Shown: one piece after another, positions 5,931 through 32,061 of the stretch
Numbering within the stretch: the stretch's first letter is position 1
How the letters are laid out: every line of letters begins with the position of its first letter
Assembly: GCF_900156285.1 (NCBI RefSeq)
Contig: NZ_FTNC01000012.1
Coordinates: forward strand, 1 to 64,000
Direction of reading: 5' to 3'
Length of the DNA stretch: 64,000 bases
Source of the DNA: Halanaerobium kushneri
GTDB lineage: Bacteria > Bacillota > Halanaerobiia > Halanaerobiales > Halanaerobiaceae
Position numbers and translations under genes: made by a program
The notes under the pieces: model-generated
Told to the model about the DNA's origin: nothing
Seen by the model: the letters and a program-made list of their open reading frames with translations, nothing else
Database searches by the model: none

Positions 5931-5959
5931 TTGACACAACTTCTAATCTTTCCTATAAT
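5931..5959 (+). promoter_or_regulatory. Consensus sigma-A promoter for nadE
   Basis: TTGACA (5931-5936) and TATAAT (5954-5959) with a 17-base spacer, a perfect consensus promoter. The 60-base leader ends in GGGAGGT before the nadE ATG. In the 400-base gap 5620-6019 I otherwise see only AT-rich sequence and, presumably, the leftward promoter of the macrodomain gene. Confidence 0.85.
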
Positions 5960-6019
5960 CCATAGTGGAATTAATCTTAAAAGATAAAAAATTACTTTCT
6001 CTGGGAGGTAATAGTAAAA

Positions 6020-6814
6020 ATGATTGATGAAAATTTAGCAGACGATATTCAGAAATGGATGCAGGAACAGGTTGAAGCAAGAAATGCTGATGGAGTTGTA
6101 GTTGGACTTAGTGGAGGGATCGATTCCTCTGTTGTTGGGGCTCTTGCTAAAAAGGCTTTTGGAGAAAATGTTCTGGGAGTTATGCTACCAGCAAATGGTA
6201 CAATCACTAAAGATGTAGAATATGCTGAGCTGCTGGCTGATAAGTTTGATATAGAGACTCTTAAGGTAAATATGAAGGAAATTAATAAACCTCTTGAAAA
6301 TACCTTAAAGAACATAGACATTGAAGAAAATGAACAGAATCACTGGCCTCAGACCAAAATTCCCACTCCAAATCCGGCAGAACAGAATATCCAAACAAGA
6401 TTAAGAATGATGACTCTCTATTATATTGCTGAGAAAAAGAACTATGTAGTTATGGGAACCAGTAATAAAAGTGAAATTCTAACCGGATATTATACTCTTT
6501 ATGGTGATGGTGGAACAGATATGAGACCAATTGGTGATTTAAATAAAACTCAGGTCTGGGAACTGGCAGAAGTTTTAGGAATTCCGAAAGAAATTATCAA
6601 TAGACCCCCTACAGGTGGCTGCCGCGGAGATGAAAGTGATCGTGATGAAAAAGAATTTGGTATCAGTTATGAAAATTTTGATAAAATCTATGAATCAATC
6701 AACAATCATGATGATCTCTCCAAATTTGAAGAGGGAGATGTCAAACGGGTTAAAGAATTGATTGATGCTGCCAGGGAAAAAGAAAATGTTCCAACTTTTC
6801 AAATTGCTGAGTAA
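6020..6814 (+). CDS. nadE: NAD+ synthase, ammonia-dependent type (copy 1)
   Basis: 264 residues. Amidates nicotinate adenine dinucleotide to NAD+ using ATP and ammonia. The PP-loop SGGIDSS is at residues 31-37. The region GTSNKSEILTGYYTLYGDGG and the later PPTGGCRGDESDRDE loop belong to the NadE core. There is no N-terminal nitrilase domain, so it depends on free ammonia. It is monocistronic between a strong promoter and a hairpin terminator. A second, clearly different NadE lies at 49137-49922; the substrate-loop residues differ (GCRGDESDRDE here against LWDGQSDEDE there). Confidence 0.92.
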   Translation: MIDENLADDIQKWMQEQVEARNADGVVVGLSGGIDSSVVGALAKKAFGENVLGVMLPANGTITKDVEYAELLADKFDIETLKVNMKEINKPLENTLKNIDIEENEQNHWPQTKIPTPNPAEQNIQTRLRMMTLYYIAEKKNYVVMGTSNKSEILTGYYTLYGDGGTDMRPIGDLNKTQVWELAEVLGIPKEIINRPPTGGCRGDESDRDEKEFGISYENFDKIYESINNHDDLSKFEEGDVKRVKELIDAAREKENVPTFQIAE

Positions 6815-6855
6815 TTTTAATACTTTTAAAAATAATTTCAAATGACAAATAATCA

Positions 6856-6892
6856 CAAAAACTGACAGGTACACGGCACCTGTCAGTTTTTG
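6856..6892. terminator. Bidirectional terminator built from an extragenic repeat
   Basis: Perfect 15-base arms (6856-6870 and 6878-6892) with a 7-base loop, flanked by A and T runs, between the convergent nadE and msrAB genes. The loop region reads GGTACACGGCACC, the exact reverse complement of the GGTGCCGTGTACC core of the repeat at 23050, so the terminator appears to be derived from or shared with that family. Confidence 0.85.
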
Positions 6893-6911
6893 TAGCTTTT
6901 TATTTTATTTT

Positions 6912-6970
6912 GCTGAATTTAACGTGTTTTCGACAAAATAACTTATATATCGGGTTGTTCACGGTACCTG
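6912..6970 (-). repeat. Copy of dispersed extragenic repeat (GGTACCGTG core)
   Basis: On the minus strand this reads CAGGTACCGTGAACAACCCG, followed by TTTTGTCGAAAACACGTT. It corresponds in order to the copies at 22800-22842 and 23050-23092. It lies between nadE and msrAB, outside coding sequence. The bases just to its right contain a tandem ACCTGTACAT. Confidence 0.6.
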
Positions 6971-6991
6971 TACATACCTGTACATTAGTTT

Positions 6992-8191
6992 TTAGAATAA
7001 ATCTTTATATTCCTCATAACCTTCTTCAGCCAGATCTTCAGCTGAAATGAATCTTAAAGCCGCAGAATTAATACAGTATCTCAAACCTGTTGGCCCCGGG
7101 CCATCTGCAAATACATGCCCTAGATGAGAATCTGCTTTTTTGGACCTTACTTCTATTCTGGTCATCCAGAGTGAGTTATCTTCAACTTCAACTAGATTAT
7201 CTTCAACCAGCGGCTTGGTAAAACTGGGCCAACCAGAACCAGATTCAAATTTATCGGTTGAAGAAAAAAGAGGCTCACCTGAAACAACATCTACATAAAT
7301 ACCGGGCTCTTTGTTATCCCAGTACTGATTGTTAAAAGCAGGTTCTGTTGCATTAAGCTGAGTCACCTTATATTGAAGGTCAGTAAGGCGGGCTCTTAAT
7401 TCCTGATCACTTTCTTCTTCATTAATTATTACATTTTCCGCATCTTCAGTCTTACAGAAAGTTACACATTCAGCTGGATCAATACTATTTTTTTCTAAAA
7501 GCCTTTCCTGAAGTTCAGAAGTTAAACCAAGTTCAGCAATATTTTTTATAATATTATCTCGCTCACCATTACCGGTAATATATCCGTTTACTTTCGTTAC
7601 TGAAGGAGAGTTAATAAACTCTTTCATAGTCATTTGTTCTAAATAATGATCTCTAAAAGCTACCTGCTGTTGAAGTCTAAATTTCTGATGATAATCTTCA
7701 GCCAGATAGAATCGATCTAATTTTTTAATCTCAGTTTTTATTTCTTTTCCGCTTTCAGCCTCCAGTTTTTCTTTCATTTCCAGAGCTATTTGCTTCTGTT
7801 CTGAATTATGATAAAGAATCAAAGAAGCATACTGTCTGGAATAAGCCTGACTATAGGGGTCATGACTGTTAAAGAAAATCTGGAGCAGTTCTCTGTAAGA
7901 TATAATCTCCGGATTATAATCAATTTCAATTGTTTCTGTGTGATCACCAATCATCTTATAACTTGGGTTCTCTGTAGTTCCACCAGCATAACCAACTCTT
8001 GTTCTAACAACACCTTCGAGAGCACCAAAAGACGCATCAGGTCCCCAGAAACAGCCAAGAGCAAATGTAGCAGTTTTAGTATCTACCTGATTCATTTGCT
8101 GATCATAGGAAATTTCAGTCTGAGCCAACCCATTTAGCGTCATACCCAAAACACTTAGCAAAATAATGAAAACAACTAATAAATAATTCAT
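6992..8191 (-). CDS. msrAB: Exported bifunctional methionine sulfoxide reductase MsrA-MsrB
   Basis: 399 residues. The first 24 form a signal peptide or membrane anchor ([16 protein letters not shown]...GLAQ), so the enzyme acts outside the cytoplasmic membrane. MsrA follows (about 40-190) with catalytic Cys47 in GCFWG. MsrB is at about 265-399 with catalytic Cys373 in [13 protein letters not shown]. It reduces both methionine sulfoxide epimers in surface proteins. Usual families have Glu after GCFWGx; here it is Asp (GCFWGPD). The 70-residue linker contains two cysteines (CVTFC) that might serve in resolving. The gene stands alone and is convergent with nadE. Confidence 0.92.
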
Positions 8192-16382: not shown

Positions 16383-17642
16383 TTATTTTGTAAAATTTTC
16401 AAGCAAATATTTTTCTGCTTCAGCTGACCAGAGTCCATTATTTTTTGCAATAATTTCTGCCAGATCAGCATATCTGGGATCTTCTTCTCCCTTTTTAGTA
16501 AAATCATCTAAAGCTGTCAATTCCATATCAATTGATGTATAAATTAATTTTTTCCCGCCCGGAATTCCTGGTAAATTTTGAATTGTATCAGCTGCACTGT
16601 CCAGGCCACCAATATGAGTAATCATTGTAGCTGGATTTAATTTACCCTCTGCTGACATTTTAAGGGATTCTCGCATATCATCATCATTACCACCAGTTGA
16701 CCCCATAATATGTGTTGGGGAATAATGAATATTGTACAAATTAAATTCTGCAGATAGTTCCTTATCACTGGGGCCGGCAAAAAAGTTCATGCAGCCGTCC
16801 TTACCGAGTATTTGATCTCCCTGTTCTGCCAGTTCTCTTACCGGTGCATAAACAAAAACATCATCATATCCTTCACCACCAACCAGATCATTTAATTCTT
16901 TTGGCACATCTTCCATTTCAGCCGTATTGACAAAGTGAAGTTCAACCCCCTGCTTTTTTGCCTCTTCCTGAGTAAATAAGGAAGCTGCTCTGTCTAAACG
17001 CTCCTGATTAATGTCAGTTACAACCACTACTGAAGGTCTGCGTTCTGCATGTAGAGCATAATCAACTGCTCCTAATCCCATTGGTCCTGCAGCTCCCAGT
17101 AAAGCAAGCTTTCCACCTTCTACAATTCCCATTTTGTGAATATAATTGTTGCTTTCTGTATGATAAACAGCGTGATAACCACCTAAAATACAGGACATTG
17201 GTTCTGAAAGTGAAGCTTCGTAAAAACCTTCTCCCTCATATTTTAAAAGATATCCCAGTTCCATAACTTCCTGGGGAATAATTGTATATTCAGTATTTCC
17301 GCCAAAGTATTTATAAGAATATCCCGGAGCATAGGGACTTCCTTTATAATTTAGAGCGGGCTGCACAGCAAATTTATCCCCTGGTTTAAACTGTTCCTGC
17401 CACTTTTTACCAACTTTAATGATCTCACCGGCAAATTCGTGACCGGTTATTGTTGGATTTTCAGCTACATCGTCAGGTACACGCTTATGACGAGCTCCCT
17501 GAATTACAGCTTTATACGTTGACATACAGATACTGTTGGAGACTATTCGAGCTAAAATCTCATCGTCTTTAATTTCTGGAAGTTCAAATTCTTCCATTCT
17601 AAGATCATTTTCACCATATATTCGAACTGCTCTTGTTTTCAT
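16383..17642 (-). CDS. Zinc-dependent sugar-phosphate dehydrogenase, L-sorbose-1-phosphate reductase (SorE)-like
   Basis: 419 residues from the ATG at 17642 (AGAAGGG upstream; a GTG four codons earlier overlaps that site). It is a medium-chain dehydrogenase: probable catalytic-zinc ligands Cys39, His68-Glu69 (GHEF) and the Glu of SEPMSC, and a nucleotide fold with GAAGPMGLGAVDYAL. The four-cysteine structural zinc loop is absent. Residue runs such as DDEILARIV, KVPDDVAENP-like and NFFAGPSDKE strongly recall SorE, which interconverts sorbose-1-phosphate and glucitol-6-phosphate. In this mannitol PTS operon it may oxidise mannitol-1-phosphate to fructose-1-phosphate; that is inference. Galactitol-phosphate dehydrogenase is an alternative. 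Confidence 0.75.
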   Translation of the reverse strand: MKTRAVRIYGENDLRMEEFELPEIKDDEILARIVSNSICMSTYKAVIQGARHKRVPDDVAENPTITGHEFAGEIIKVGKKWQEQFKPGDKFAVQPALNYKGSPYAPGYSYKYFGGNTEYTIIPQEVMELGYLLKYEGEGFYEASLSEPMSCILGGYHAVYHTESNNYIHKMGIVEGGKLALLGAAGPMGLGAVDYALHAERRPSVVVVTDINQERLDRAASLFTQEEAKKQGVELHFVNTAEMEDVPKELNDLVGGEGYDDVFVYAPVRELAEQGDQILGKDGCMNFFAGPSDKELSAEFNLYNIHYSPTHIMGSTGGNDDDMRESLKMSAEGKLNPATMITHIGGLDSAADTIQNLPGIPGGKKLIYTSIDMELTALDDFTKKGEEDPRYADLAEIIAKNNGLWSAEAEKYLLENFTK

Positions 17643-17732
17643 TACTTTAATCACCCTTCTTATTTATAATTATTAATATCATCTTCAAAAATTTTAAAAT
17701 TTTTTGGACCGACTTTCAAAAAAACTGATACT

Positions 17733-18662
17733 TTAAATTTCAGTGATTCTAATTAATTTTTTGAGCCTTTTTAAATCCTTTAGGCTTCCCATTTCTGTAC
17801 CATCTCTTAACAGTGTTGCACTGCTGGCAGCGGCTGCAAATTTAATCATTTCCCTTAAATTAAGGTTATTTTCCAGAGCATAGGCCAGTCCACCGACCAT
17901 CGCATCTCCAGCTCCAACTGTGCTTTTTACATTTAACTTTAATGGATCAATTTTATATTTCCCCTGCTCTGTAATAAATACTGCCCCATTTTCGCCCAGA
18001 GAAAGCATAATCATTTTAATACCATTATCTAAGAGACTTTCTGCTTTTCTAATCATCATCTTTAGATCCTTAAAGTCTTTTTTAAAATAAAGTTCCAGCT
18101 CATGTTCATTGGGTTTAATTAATGTGGGTGCTGCTTCTATACCTGCTTCAAATAGTGGTCCATCTGCATCCAGTATAGTTTTAATTTTTCTATTTTTAGC
18201 TTCTTTAATGAGTTCAAAATAAATATCATTATCAACTCCAGCTGGAACACTACCTGCTAAAACTAATATATCATCTGTTTTTAAATTAGTAAAAAGTTTT
18301 GTCTTTAATTCTTCAATTTGTCTGAAAGAAATTGGAGAACCTGATTCATTAAGATCAGTAAATGTGTTATTAACTGGATCTACTATTTTAGTATTTGTTC
18401 TAGTTTCCCTACTAGTTTTAATAAATTCTGTTTTTATACCTAAGCTTTTAATTTCATTTATAATAAAATTTCCGGCTGCTCCACCTAAAAGACCGGCAGC
18501 TGTGCTCTGCTGACCTAAGTTTTTAAGCATTTTCGAAACATTAATCCCCTTACCTCCAGCATCTTTGTGTACTTTTTTGATGCGGTTTAAATTATTAATT
18601 CTAAAACTTTCTATAATTATGGTTTTATCTAAAGCTGGATTTAAAGTTAGTGTTTTGATCAT
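17733..18662 (-). CDS. PfkB-family kinase, 1-phosphofructokinase type
   Basis: 309 residues from the ATG at 18662, ten bases after AGGGA. The N-terminal TLNPALDKT, the GGKGINVSK substrate motif and GAGDAMVGG (catalytic Asp253) match the FruK/LacC branch, which phosphorylates fructose-1-phosphate or tagatose-6-phosphate to a 1,6-bisphosphate. It lies between mtlA and the SorE-like dehydrogenase. A role on fructose-1-phosphate would complete a route from mannitol to fructose-1,6-bisphosphate. Sequence alone does not separate FruK from LacC. Confidence 0.8.
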   Translation of the reverse strand: MIKTLTLNPALDKTIIIESFRINNLNRIKKVHKDAGGKGINVSKMLKNLGQQSTAAGLLGGAAGNFIINEIKSLGIKTEFIKTSRETRTNTKIVDPVNNTFTDLNESGSPISFRQIEELKTKLFTNLKTDDILVLAGSVPAGVDNDIYFELIKEAKNRKIKTILDADGPLFEAGIEAAPTLIKPNEHELELYFKKDFKDLKMMIRKAESLLDNGIKMIMLSLGENGAVFITEQGKYKIDPLKLNVKSTVGAGDAMVGGLAYALENNLNLREMIKFAAAASSATLLRDGTEMGSLKDLKRLKKLIRITEI

Positions 18663-29472: not shown

Positions 29473-29765
29473 TTAAATAACAGATTTCTTTTTAAATAAT
29501 TAAATTACTAAAAATAGATTTTTATCACATCTAACCGCAAAACATGTTAGAAAAATCACTATACAAATCAAGTTTTTTTATGTATAATATTATTGTTAGG
29601 TGTTTGCAAAATAGGCAAAAAAAATAGTAAAAAAATGTAATTAATGGGTTGAATTAAATTTTAAGAATTTAAAAATTAAATAAGAAAATGTTCTAATAAA
29701 ATTAGGCATGACAAAATAAACCTATGAATACAGGTTTTTAAAAAAGATATTAAAAGATTTAAATT

Positions 29766-31199
29766 CTAAGCAATTAGTGATCTTAAAGATCTAATATTTT
29801 CTGGTTTATCCATTTTATCAGCTAAGATCAATGTTAAAAGCTGAGTGATTCCAGCTAGAAAAACATCGGTTTTAATACTCTTTAGATTCTGAGTTTTTAG
29901 ATTGCCAGTAACCATGGCATCTTTAAAATAGTTAATTGTCTGTTCAACAACTCCCCGTTTTTTGTAGAGGTCTATCCAGTCATCTGTATCTCTAATGATG
30001 CCAGGATAAGTTCTTAAATCCTGGTCAGGATATGTATAGGTAACTCTACCGTAATTGGAGTCAGTGCAGGGTTCTTCACAGTAGCAGTTTCTTTTACCAC
30101 CCTTGTAATTGATTTTAGGACAGACAAACTTAAATCTGGGGCTGCGGTTTTTACCACGACACCAGCCATTAGGTTTCATTGGCAACGAAGAATCTTTAGG
30201 ACATAAAGGCCAGCCATTTTCATTGTATTCTGGCTGTGGTAGATCTGATTTAGTATTTCTAGAATTAAGTGGAATGACTGCTTTATCAAAGCCAAAATCC
30301 TTAATTAAAAAGGGATAAGTCTGATAACTGTCAAAGGCAGAGTCAGCAATAAAAGTGGAGTAATGATGATTATGAAGATTAAAATAATCTTCTAAAACTG
30401 GTTTTAAAGAAGTTGAGTCACCAATAGATTTGTCTTCATCAGGTGAGTCAGATTTTTTCTCAACAGGTACTTCAGGGTGATTATCTTTAAATTCATCATC
30501 AAAAAAGGAGATGTGACGGATAACTCCAAGCCCATTAGTGACAATACCTGCTTTGTAGACATAGCAGAAATGGCCGTTAATGTAGAGCTGTTTTATCTCT
30601 TGATTAACCTGAGCAGAAGAAGGCATAGACTGATAAGCGAAAGCATATATATTAACATTTTTATCGTTTCTGTAGATGTTTTTAAGTCTGCGAATGATAT
30701 TGTTTATGTATTTAGGATTGTTTTCAGTCACATAGGGTTCAAAACCAGTTGTGTCATAGATAAAAAGATCAGATTTTAGAGGATCAATTTTTCTGCAAAG
30801 AGGTTCAGTAACATCAACAAGATGATAGAAAAGATCTTCTAAGTGGTCTTCAAACTTTGTTTTAAAACGAGAAAACTGAGAGATATCAGGAATAGATTTA
30901 AAACCACAGAAATCTCTTAAGTCACTGCTTAAAGCAAAAATATTAACTAAGAGCACAAGAGTTGGAATTCCCAGTATTTTTTGCAGAATAAATGCAGAAA
31001 GCATCGATTCTAGATCATATTCTCTTTTTCTACCAAAATATTTGTAGTAAGCAGTATAGAAATTGGCAGGAATAAATTCAGATAAATCAAGATATTGATC
31101 AAGCATTTCAAGGAATTGAGGCTTGTCATTTTGAGCCCAATCTTTGGCCTGTTGATAAAGATCACCGAAAGATAATTGCTTTTTAGAATTAAAAGACAT
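29766..31199 (-). CDS. DDE transposase
   Basis: 477 residues, intact. Probable catalytic residues are Asp in IYDTTGFE, Asp in FIADSAFD and Glu in KRGVVEQTINYFKDA, a DDE triad of the IS4/IS1182-like superfamily. The N-terminal region includes the helical LESMLSAFILQKILG segment common to these enzymes. A cysteine cluster (CYCEEPC) in the C-terminal third may bind a metal. The ribosome site AAGGAGGAA lies in a leader hairpin. The copy appears functional. Confidence 0.88.
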   Translation of the reverse strand: MSFNSKKQLSFGDLYQQAKDWAQNDKPQFLEMLDQYLDLSEFIPANFYTAYYKYFGRKREYDLESMLSAFILQKILGIPTLVLLVNIFALSSDLRDFCGFKSIPDISQFSRFKTKFEDHLEDLFYHLVDVTEPLCRKIDPLKSDLFIYDTTGFEPYVTENNPKYINNIIRRLKNIYRNDKNVNIYAFAYQSMPSSAQVNQEIKQLYINGHFCYVYKAGIVTNGLGVIRHISFFDDEFKDNHPEVPVEKKSDSPDEDKSIGDSTSLKPVLEDYFNLHNHHYSTFIADSAFDSYQTYPFLIKDFGFDKAVIPLNSRNTKSDLPQPEYNENGWPLCPKDSSLPMKPNGWCRGKNRSPRFKFVCPKINYKGGKRNCYCEEPCTDSNYGRVTYTYPDQDLRTYPGIIRDTDDWIDLYKKRGVVEQTINYFKDAMVTGNLKTQNLKSIKTDVFLAGITQLLTLILADKMDKPENIRSLRSLIA

Positions 31200-31205
31200 T
31201 ATGAT

Positions 31206-31276
31206 TTCCTCCTTTTGGTTTGTGGTATTTTTAGTATCTCTAACTATATTATACCATATTTTAAGGAGGAAGTCAC
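31206..31276 (-). promoter_or_regulatory. Transposase promoter inside an inverted repeat that can hide the ribosome site
   Basis: The Shine-Dalgarno region (31206-31214, reads AAGGAGGAA on the minus strand) is the exact complement of 31263-31271. A promoter GTGACT-N17-TATAAT (31271-31276 and 31248-31253) lies so that its transcript would begin near 31241, after the 5' arm. Native transcripts have a free ribosome site, while read-through transcripts fold it into a stem. Confidence 0.7.
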
Positions 31277-31311
31277 CAAAAATTTATGTCATGAGCCCTG
31301 TTATTTCGGGC

Positions 31312-31340
31312 TTTAGACATTATACAAAGGACTATATAAT
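31312..31340 (+). promoter_or_regulatory. Possible promoter of the ytfI-ytfJ-like pair
   Basis: TTTAGA (31312-31317) and TATAAT (31335-31340) with a 17-base spacer, 25 bases before the start codon and just outside the right end of the IS. The -35 is weak (3 of 6). A small AGCCC/GGGCT hairpin precedes it. Confidence 0.45.
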
Positions 31341-31365
31341 ATTATTGTGTAAAGGAGGGAAAAAA

Positions 31366-32061
31366 TTGATTCAGATTTTATTTTTATTTATAATATTCTT
31401 AATTTTCTTTCTATTGATTCTTCTTATTATTCCCTACTACTACAGCTTTAGTTTTAAATATCAACAAAAATTTACTTACAGCCTCTCTCTCTTATTAATA
31501 TTTATAAAAATTAAATTTAGTAGTACAGGAAAAAATCAAATACTATTAATTGAAATTTTAAATTTTAAAAAGAGAATTAAACTTAATAAAAACAGCAAAA
31601 GAAAATCAACAGAAAAACAAGCCAGAAAATTTCCCGGATCTAAAATTAAACAAGCCGTTTCTAAAAACGATAAAGTAAAAAAACCAAAAAATAAATCATC
31701 TTTAAATTTTGATTATAAATTGATAAATAAAGAAAATTTTAGTCATTTGTTTAAATTTATACTGGATATAATTAAAATATTAAAAGCAGATTATTTAAAA
31801 TTAAATTTATTATTCTCTTTTGAGGATCCCTACTATAATGGTCTTTTCCTGGCCTACTACTATACTTTTAAAGAAGTGTTTGATTATCCGAATATTAAAG
31901 TTGAAGTTAACTGGCAGGAGGTGATTTTTGAGGCAGATGGTTCAATCGGGGGTAAAATTAGACCTGGAGAAATTATCTACCACATATTAAAGTTTATCTT
32001 TTCGTTAAAAAGTCTTAAAATTTTCTGGCGTTTATATCAATCAAATTCTAAGAAAGGGTGA
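31366..32061 (+). CDS. DUF2953 membrane protein (YtfI-like)
   Basis: 231 residues from a TTG at 31366, six bases after AAAGGAGGG. A longer frame reaches back to 31201 but would run through the IS leader hairpin. It has one N-terminal membrane helix (LFLFIIFLIFFLLILLIIPYY), a lysine-rich middle and a conserved C-terminal half (FEDPYYNGLFLAYYY, WQEVIFEADG, GKIRPGEIIYHILKF) of DUF2953. The adjoining gene is GerW-like, the same pairing as Bacillus ytfI-ytfJ. Function is unknown. Confidence 0.75.
   Translation: MIQILFLFIIFLIFFLLILLIIPYYYSFSFKYQQKFTYSLSLLLIFIKIKFSSTGKNQILLIEILNFKKRIKLNKNSKRKSTEKQARKFPGSKIKQAVSKNDKVKKPKNKSSLNFDYKLINKENFSHLFKFILDIIKILKADYLKLNLLFSFEDPYYNGLFLAYYYTFKEVFDYPNIKVEVNWQEVIFEADGSIGGKIRPGEIIYHILKFIFSLKSLKIFWRLYQSNSKKG

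Follow-up and report, generated by a model that had tools for sequence, protein, structure and literature searches.

A candidate read-through guard in the leader of a DUF772/IS1182-like insertion sequence of Halanaerobium, and a Shine-Dalgarno-type motif beside its insertion sites

In the window, i.e. the whole 64,000-nucleotide stretch of Halanaerobium kushneri DNA analysed here, a transposase gene is preceded by an inverted repeat, one arm of which holds the Shine-Dalgarno (SD) sequence of that gene. In our view, this repeat probably serves a 1.7-kb DUF772/IS1182-like insertion sequence as a built-in guard against read-through. The transposase promoter would sit between the two arms: a message from this promoter would lack the upstream arm, leave the SD open and allow the transposase to be made, and a sense message entering from flanking DNA would carry both arms and form a long hairpin that spans the promoter region, with the SD hidden in it. 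At the level of sequence, the comparative support for this interpretation is strong.

The insertion sequence and its leader

The insertion sequence is complete, 1738 bp long and located on the minus strand (29597-31334), as established by comparing its flanks with those of other copies in the same genome, namely six 5' ends and three 3' ends located at the ends of contigs or close to them. Its left end is TAGTCCTTTGTATAATG and its right end is ...GCCTATTTTGCAAACACCTA. The transposase (477 aa; 29766-31199, minus strand) was classified with Pfam and NCBIfam. It belongs to the DUF772 group, with a Pfam score of 45.8 bits, and reaches 73.8 bits with the NCBIfam IS1182 model NF033551, under the curated cut-off of 270; it is therefore labelled IS1182-like and not a member of that family. 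The termini of the element are TAG...CTA, partly inverted as judged by eye, and the terminal repeats and target duplication that characterise the IS1182 family are both found. The named relatives with 94 and 88% identity are from Halanaerobium.

The sequence-only reading had pointed to a nine-base exact complement of the SD region, about 50 bases upstream of it, and this complement is confirmed. On the minus strand, TTCCTCCTT (31271-31263) is the exact complement of the SD segment AAGGAGGAA (31214-31206), with 48 nt between them. Three further pairs, between TGA (31275-31273) and TCA (31204-31202), are found beyond a single C.A mismatch (31272.31205). The upstream arm thus extends over 31263-31275, and the downstream arm, AAGGAGGAAATCA (31202-31214), holds the SD core GGAGG (31212-31208). 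A promoter with a 17-base spacing, whose own transcript would exclude the upstream arm, had also been proposed, and the site itself is indeed present (31248-31276, minus strand): GTGACT (31276-31271) and TATAAT, the latter within TGG TATAAT (31256-31248), are separated by 17 nt. It matches the consensus at 10 of 12 positions and has a TG ahead of the -10, i.e. an extended -10. As a small promoter scan yields 6 promoter-like sites against 2.0 expected, this candidate promoter is to be taken as a consensus match only. The corresponding transcript would start at about 31241, between the arms.

The two putative messages are predicted to fold very differently. The read-through leader (31334-31170) forms a single long predicted hairpin of -39.0 kcal/mol (z -4.49; 0/200 shuffles equal), in the inner helix of which (31223-31256, minus strand) TGGTAT from the -10 region (31256-31251) is paired with ATACCA (31228-31223). 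The arm-to-SD duplex of the window leader has a z of -5.1, which none of 300 shuffles equals. The native leader, from the putative start at 31241, is by contrast predicted to be unstructured (-2.8 kcal/mol, z +1.03). Rfam gives only sub-threshold matches for the leader (four, up to E 1, all under the gathering scores). A separate left-end hairpin, ATGTC..AGCCC/GGGCT..GACAT (31286-31320, minus strand), is predicted before the upstream arm; a terminator scan finds no terminator at the left end in the window, this hairpin not being scored as one. The possibility that the upstream arm is the SD of a divergent small gene was considered and rejected, since the plus-strand ATG that follows the arm runs into a stop two codons on.

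Covariation of the arms and predicted access to the ribosome site

Genome searches, together with two plasmids, provided 98 leaders that include a 5' end and represent 47 distinct ones. Of the latter, 45 were scored: L058 and L084 were left out as having no SD by the rule used, and L095, in which the left end is replaced, was scored and fails the arm test. Viral contigs yielded just three weak matches, at 29% identity. In relatives whose identity ranges from 63 down to 35%, changes in one arm are accompanied by changes in the other. By eye, the upstream arm complements the SD of its own leader in most lineages, with letters that differ from one lineage to another, as in the pairs GGCTTCCTCCT/AGGAGGAAGCC, ATAACTCCT/AGGAGTTAT, TATCTCCT/AGGAGATA and CACCCTCCTCATAGT/ACTATGAGGAGGGTG. 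The arm-to-SD z is at or below -3.0 in 32 of the 45 scored leaders. Lineages G (z about 0), M (-0.7 and -0.8) and L (-1.4) fail the test, and lineages D (-2.6) and K (-2.4) are intermediate.

When arms were swapped between 17 representatives, the sum over own pairs was -331.1 kcal/mol, compared to -280.2 for the best of 20,000 swaps (0/20,000 equal), with means of -19.5 for own and -12.7 for swapped arms. The own arm is the best partner in 8/17 rows and 9/17 columns. The representatives in this test are not fully independent, because some lineages contribute two or three. The columns beside the SD core hold several pair types, namely CG 8, AT 3 and TA 3 in column -1, and AT 6, CG 3, TA 2 and GC 1 in column -4. 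The layout is also constant: in 18/18 representatives, a -10-like hexamer lies between the arms, 8-15 nt past the upstream arm, and 59-66 nt separate the upstream arm from the left end, the hexamers and left-end patterns having been chosen by eye. A hairpin is present in most of the left ends, and is terminator-like in 1/5 loci scanned.

The arms are predicted to have a marked effect on SD access. Averaged over the 18 representatives, the cost of opening the SD is 11.3 kcal/mol in the read-through leader, compared to 3.0 in the native and 4.2 in the arm-shuffled ones, and the predicted unpaired probability of the SD is 0.05, 0.37 and 0.26, respectively. In 14 of the 18, none of 60 arm shuffles reaches the observed opening cost; in the remaining four, the shuffles at or above it number 27 (G), 7 (K), 2 (I) and 1 (L). 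Under this folding model, the arms would be expected to influence translation and, with it, transposition.

Closer relatives are less informative. The genome holds six further 5' ends of this element, and in these T replaces C at 31272, giving a longer perfect match, GATTTCCTCCTT/AAGGAGGAAATC. The SD arm does not vary over 17 Halanaerobium loci, some of which are one place represented in two collections. The upstream arm is variable: one site holds either T or C, and in L015/L038 and L017/L043 this arm has lost a core pair that no change in the SD arm makes up for; despite this lost pair, 0/60 shuffles reach the SD opening cost of L015. No compensating change of the arms is found among the 17 loci. 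The comparison of arms in other copies, suggested by the sequence-only reading, is thus positive across lineages, where the arms covary, but inside Halanaerobium it is neutral to slightly against the proposal.

Other transposases, known systems and rival explanations

Pairing of this kind is rare in ordinary genes. In the window and 12 other stretches, z is below -3 in 6/175 ordinary genes with a clear SD, and three of these six are transposase genes (IS256, IS110 and a DUF772 relative). A scan blind to gene identity covered 1,151 genes in 92 stretches (the 12 control stretches and 80 from four genomes), and 8 of the 9 genes below z -5 encode transposases: four are own-family copies, which were to be expected because the four genomes were chosen for carrying the family, two are IS256 and two are other IS1182/IS5-like transposases, the ninth gene encoding a transporter. 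Among eight multi-copy protein clusters, five are DDE transposases with z from -3.0 to -7.6; the other three, identified by eye, are an intron-type reverse transcriptase (+0.6 to +0.8), a metabolic enzyme (+0.2 to +0.3) and a TnpB-like protein (-1.6 to -1.7).

In IS1182 proper, z is below -3 in 2/29 NF033551 leaders (from 30 loci, L167 being left out and L153 being scored from a mis-picked start). The arms were therefore rejected as a general IS1182 feature, most NF033551 leaders being without arms by the z measure. Some leaders of IS1182 proper do have arms, such as L165 (AAAACCCCCTT/AAGGGGGTTTT, z -4.2) and, by eye, L153 and L170. Arms are also seen in a sister DUF772 element encoding a 425-aa protein (L174, L184, L192, L197 and L199). 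For IS256, z is below -3 in 6/30 leaders, a count in which the minimum arm separation skips shorter forms visible by eye. SD-complement arms are found in L180 (IS256, 5948-7165, z -7.4) and in L175 (IS110, 16635-17918, z -4.8), and the transposase leaders of L264, L267, L269, L279, L284 and L287, all from the IS256/IS110 set, have window-like ones. These IS256 and IS110 copies come from the same phylum and their arms are of the same kind as those of the window element, although their transposases are unrelated or distant; the arms have probably arisen there independently.

Read-through protection is reportedly known in IS10 (Tn10) and IS50 (Tn5), where it is said to go back to work by Davis, Simons and Kleckner in 1985 and by Krebs and Reznikoff in 1986. 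In these two IS4-family elements, the arms lie around the transposase promoter, the second one covers the ribosome site, and only outside messages carry both. The window element likewise has an upstream segment complementary to its ribosome site, and its arms also flank the candidate transposase promoter, as placed by consensus. It differs in that its transposase is DUF772/IS1182-like and not of the IS4 family, and in that its putative guard is supported by sequence comparison. The passages of PMC4265352, PMC8450116, PMC3196728 and PMC8944449 available to us do not describe the guard mechanism for IS10 or IS50. Our results would extend the control logic of two enteric transposons to a DUF772/IS1182-like group, as well as to IS256 and IS110 copies, and suggest that many insertion sequences could be protected against read-through in the same way.

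The hairpin could alternatively work in the element's own message, if the real start of this message preceded the first arm and native translation were switched by the fold in response to temperature, an antisense RNA or a protein. IS200 of Salmonella offers a parallel, as its leader reportedly has paired stem-loops, one hiding the ribosome site and the other stopping incoming transcripts, according to PMC3196728, which cites previous studies of IS200. The Halanaerobium left end moreover contains a TATAAT. This TATAAT is however absent from the left ends of the other lineages, whereas every representative has its -10-like hexamer (by eye) just past the upstream arm, that of the window being an extended -10. 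The likeness to IS200 is in the ribosome-site stem, and in the left-end hairpin that several lineages of the window family also have. The ribosome-site stem of IS200 is present in its own message too, whereas the predicted native message of the window element lacks the upstream arm, and a terminator-like left-end hairpin is limited to 1/5 loci scanned, with none in the window. We thus regard a switch acting on native translation as unlikely.

Still less likely is that the inverted repeat is a DNA operator, bound for example by the transposase or a host regulator so as to repress the promoter. Arms on both sides of the -10 would fit a binding site that is looped or paired, but the letters of the arms vary from lineage to lineage with complementarity retained, and the SD is in every case part of the second arm. 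As for a chance match between a pyrimidine tract and a nearby purine-rich SD, SD-like and CCTCC-like words are common and three lineages are without significant pairing; yet the absence of any equal among the 300 shuffles of the window leader and the 20,000 cross-lineage swaps, and the rarity of such scores in ordinary genes, make this hardly credible.

Insertion sites

Copies of the element seem to be directed to GGAGG-type motifs that precede genes, mostly the SD of the gene that comes next, and the transposase gene faces away from it. In the window, it is bordered by a 14-bp target duplication, TATAATATTATTGT, beside the left end (31335-31348, plus strand), the other 14-bp copy lying beside the right end (29583-29596, plus strand). 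The former is followed, after the 5 nt GTAAA, by a host GGAGG (31354-31358, plus strand). This is the SD of the neighbouring gene on that strand, for which a TTG at 31366 is the probable start. Target duplications are mostly 10-14 bp long.

A similar arrangement recurs over 89 distinct insertion sites, which are not independent, many coming from few genomes; L084, L059, L071 and L095 were left out, as having no recognised left end. A CCTCC-like word occurs within 40 nt outside the left end in 76/89 sites, compared to 6.6% of random positions, and the opposite strand carries an SD with a start codon after it in 66/89, compared to 4.2%. At 15-27 nt outside the left end, the SD-core complement is found in 71/89 sites, compared to 359/20,000 random positions (1.8%) and, in the same -27 to -15 interval, to 298/5,754 random positions located at most 150 nt upstream of SD genes. 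An SD-like word on the transposase strand is found in the left flank of 2/89 sites, and the right flanks of the insertions have the two words in 5/69 and 4/69. Among the measured sites, the duplication starts 5 nt from the CTCC edge in 31/41 when lineage group C-F is set aside; within that group, the distance is 8 nt in 14/16. A start and an open frame of at least 60 aa come after the core in 51/71 sites, compared to 22.7% of 6,702 genomic cores. Of the 18 sites with no core in the -27 to -15 interval, three (L106, L125 and L133) abut by eye, on their left flank, the right end of another copy, which suggests tandem copies; in several of the remaining ones, variants such as CACCTC or CCCCCTT are present.

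The target motif is probably read as DNA. In L126 (1258-1343), the GGAGG word is not an SD but is supplied by the 5' end of a tRNA-Tyr gene adjoining the insertion; this single case indicates that the motif need not be a functional SD and points to DNA recognition. Altogether, it seems rather likely that this transposase group uses the SD motif as a DNA address, cutting at a constant distance from GGAGG-type words (5 nt, or 8 nt in one group) and leaving its own gene facing away from the one that follows the motif, and combines this with a leader that closes its own SD in outside messages. If confirmed, this would amount to a site-specific preference in insertion for a motif that is among the commonest functional ones of bacterial DNA, and the target pattern would give a simple assay of target choice by a DDE transposase.

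The transposase gene is divergent from the gene that follows the target motif. Because of this orientation, the promoter of the target gene reads the element antisense, which lowers the sense read-through load expected from the nearest host promoter; the guard would then act on sense transcripts coming from the other side. In the sister 425-aa DUF772 element, SD-like words lie near the left end in 4/5 copies, as judged by eye. Finally, an outward promoter-like site spans the left end of the window element (31312-31340, plus strand); as its -10 is located inside the target duplication, the neighbouring gene may gain a -35 from the insertion.
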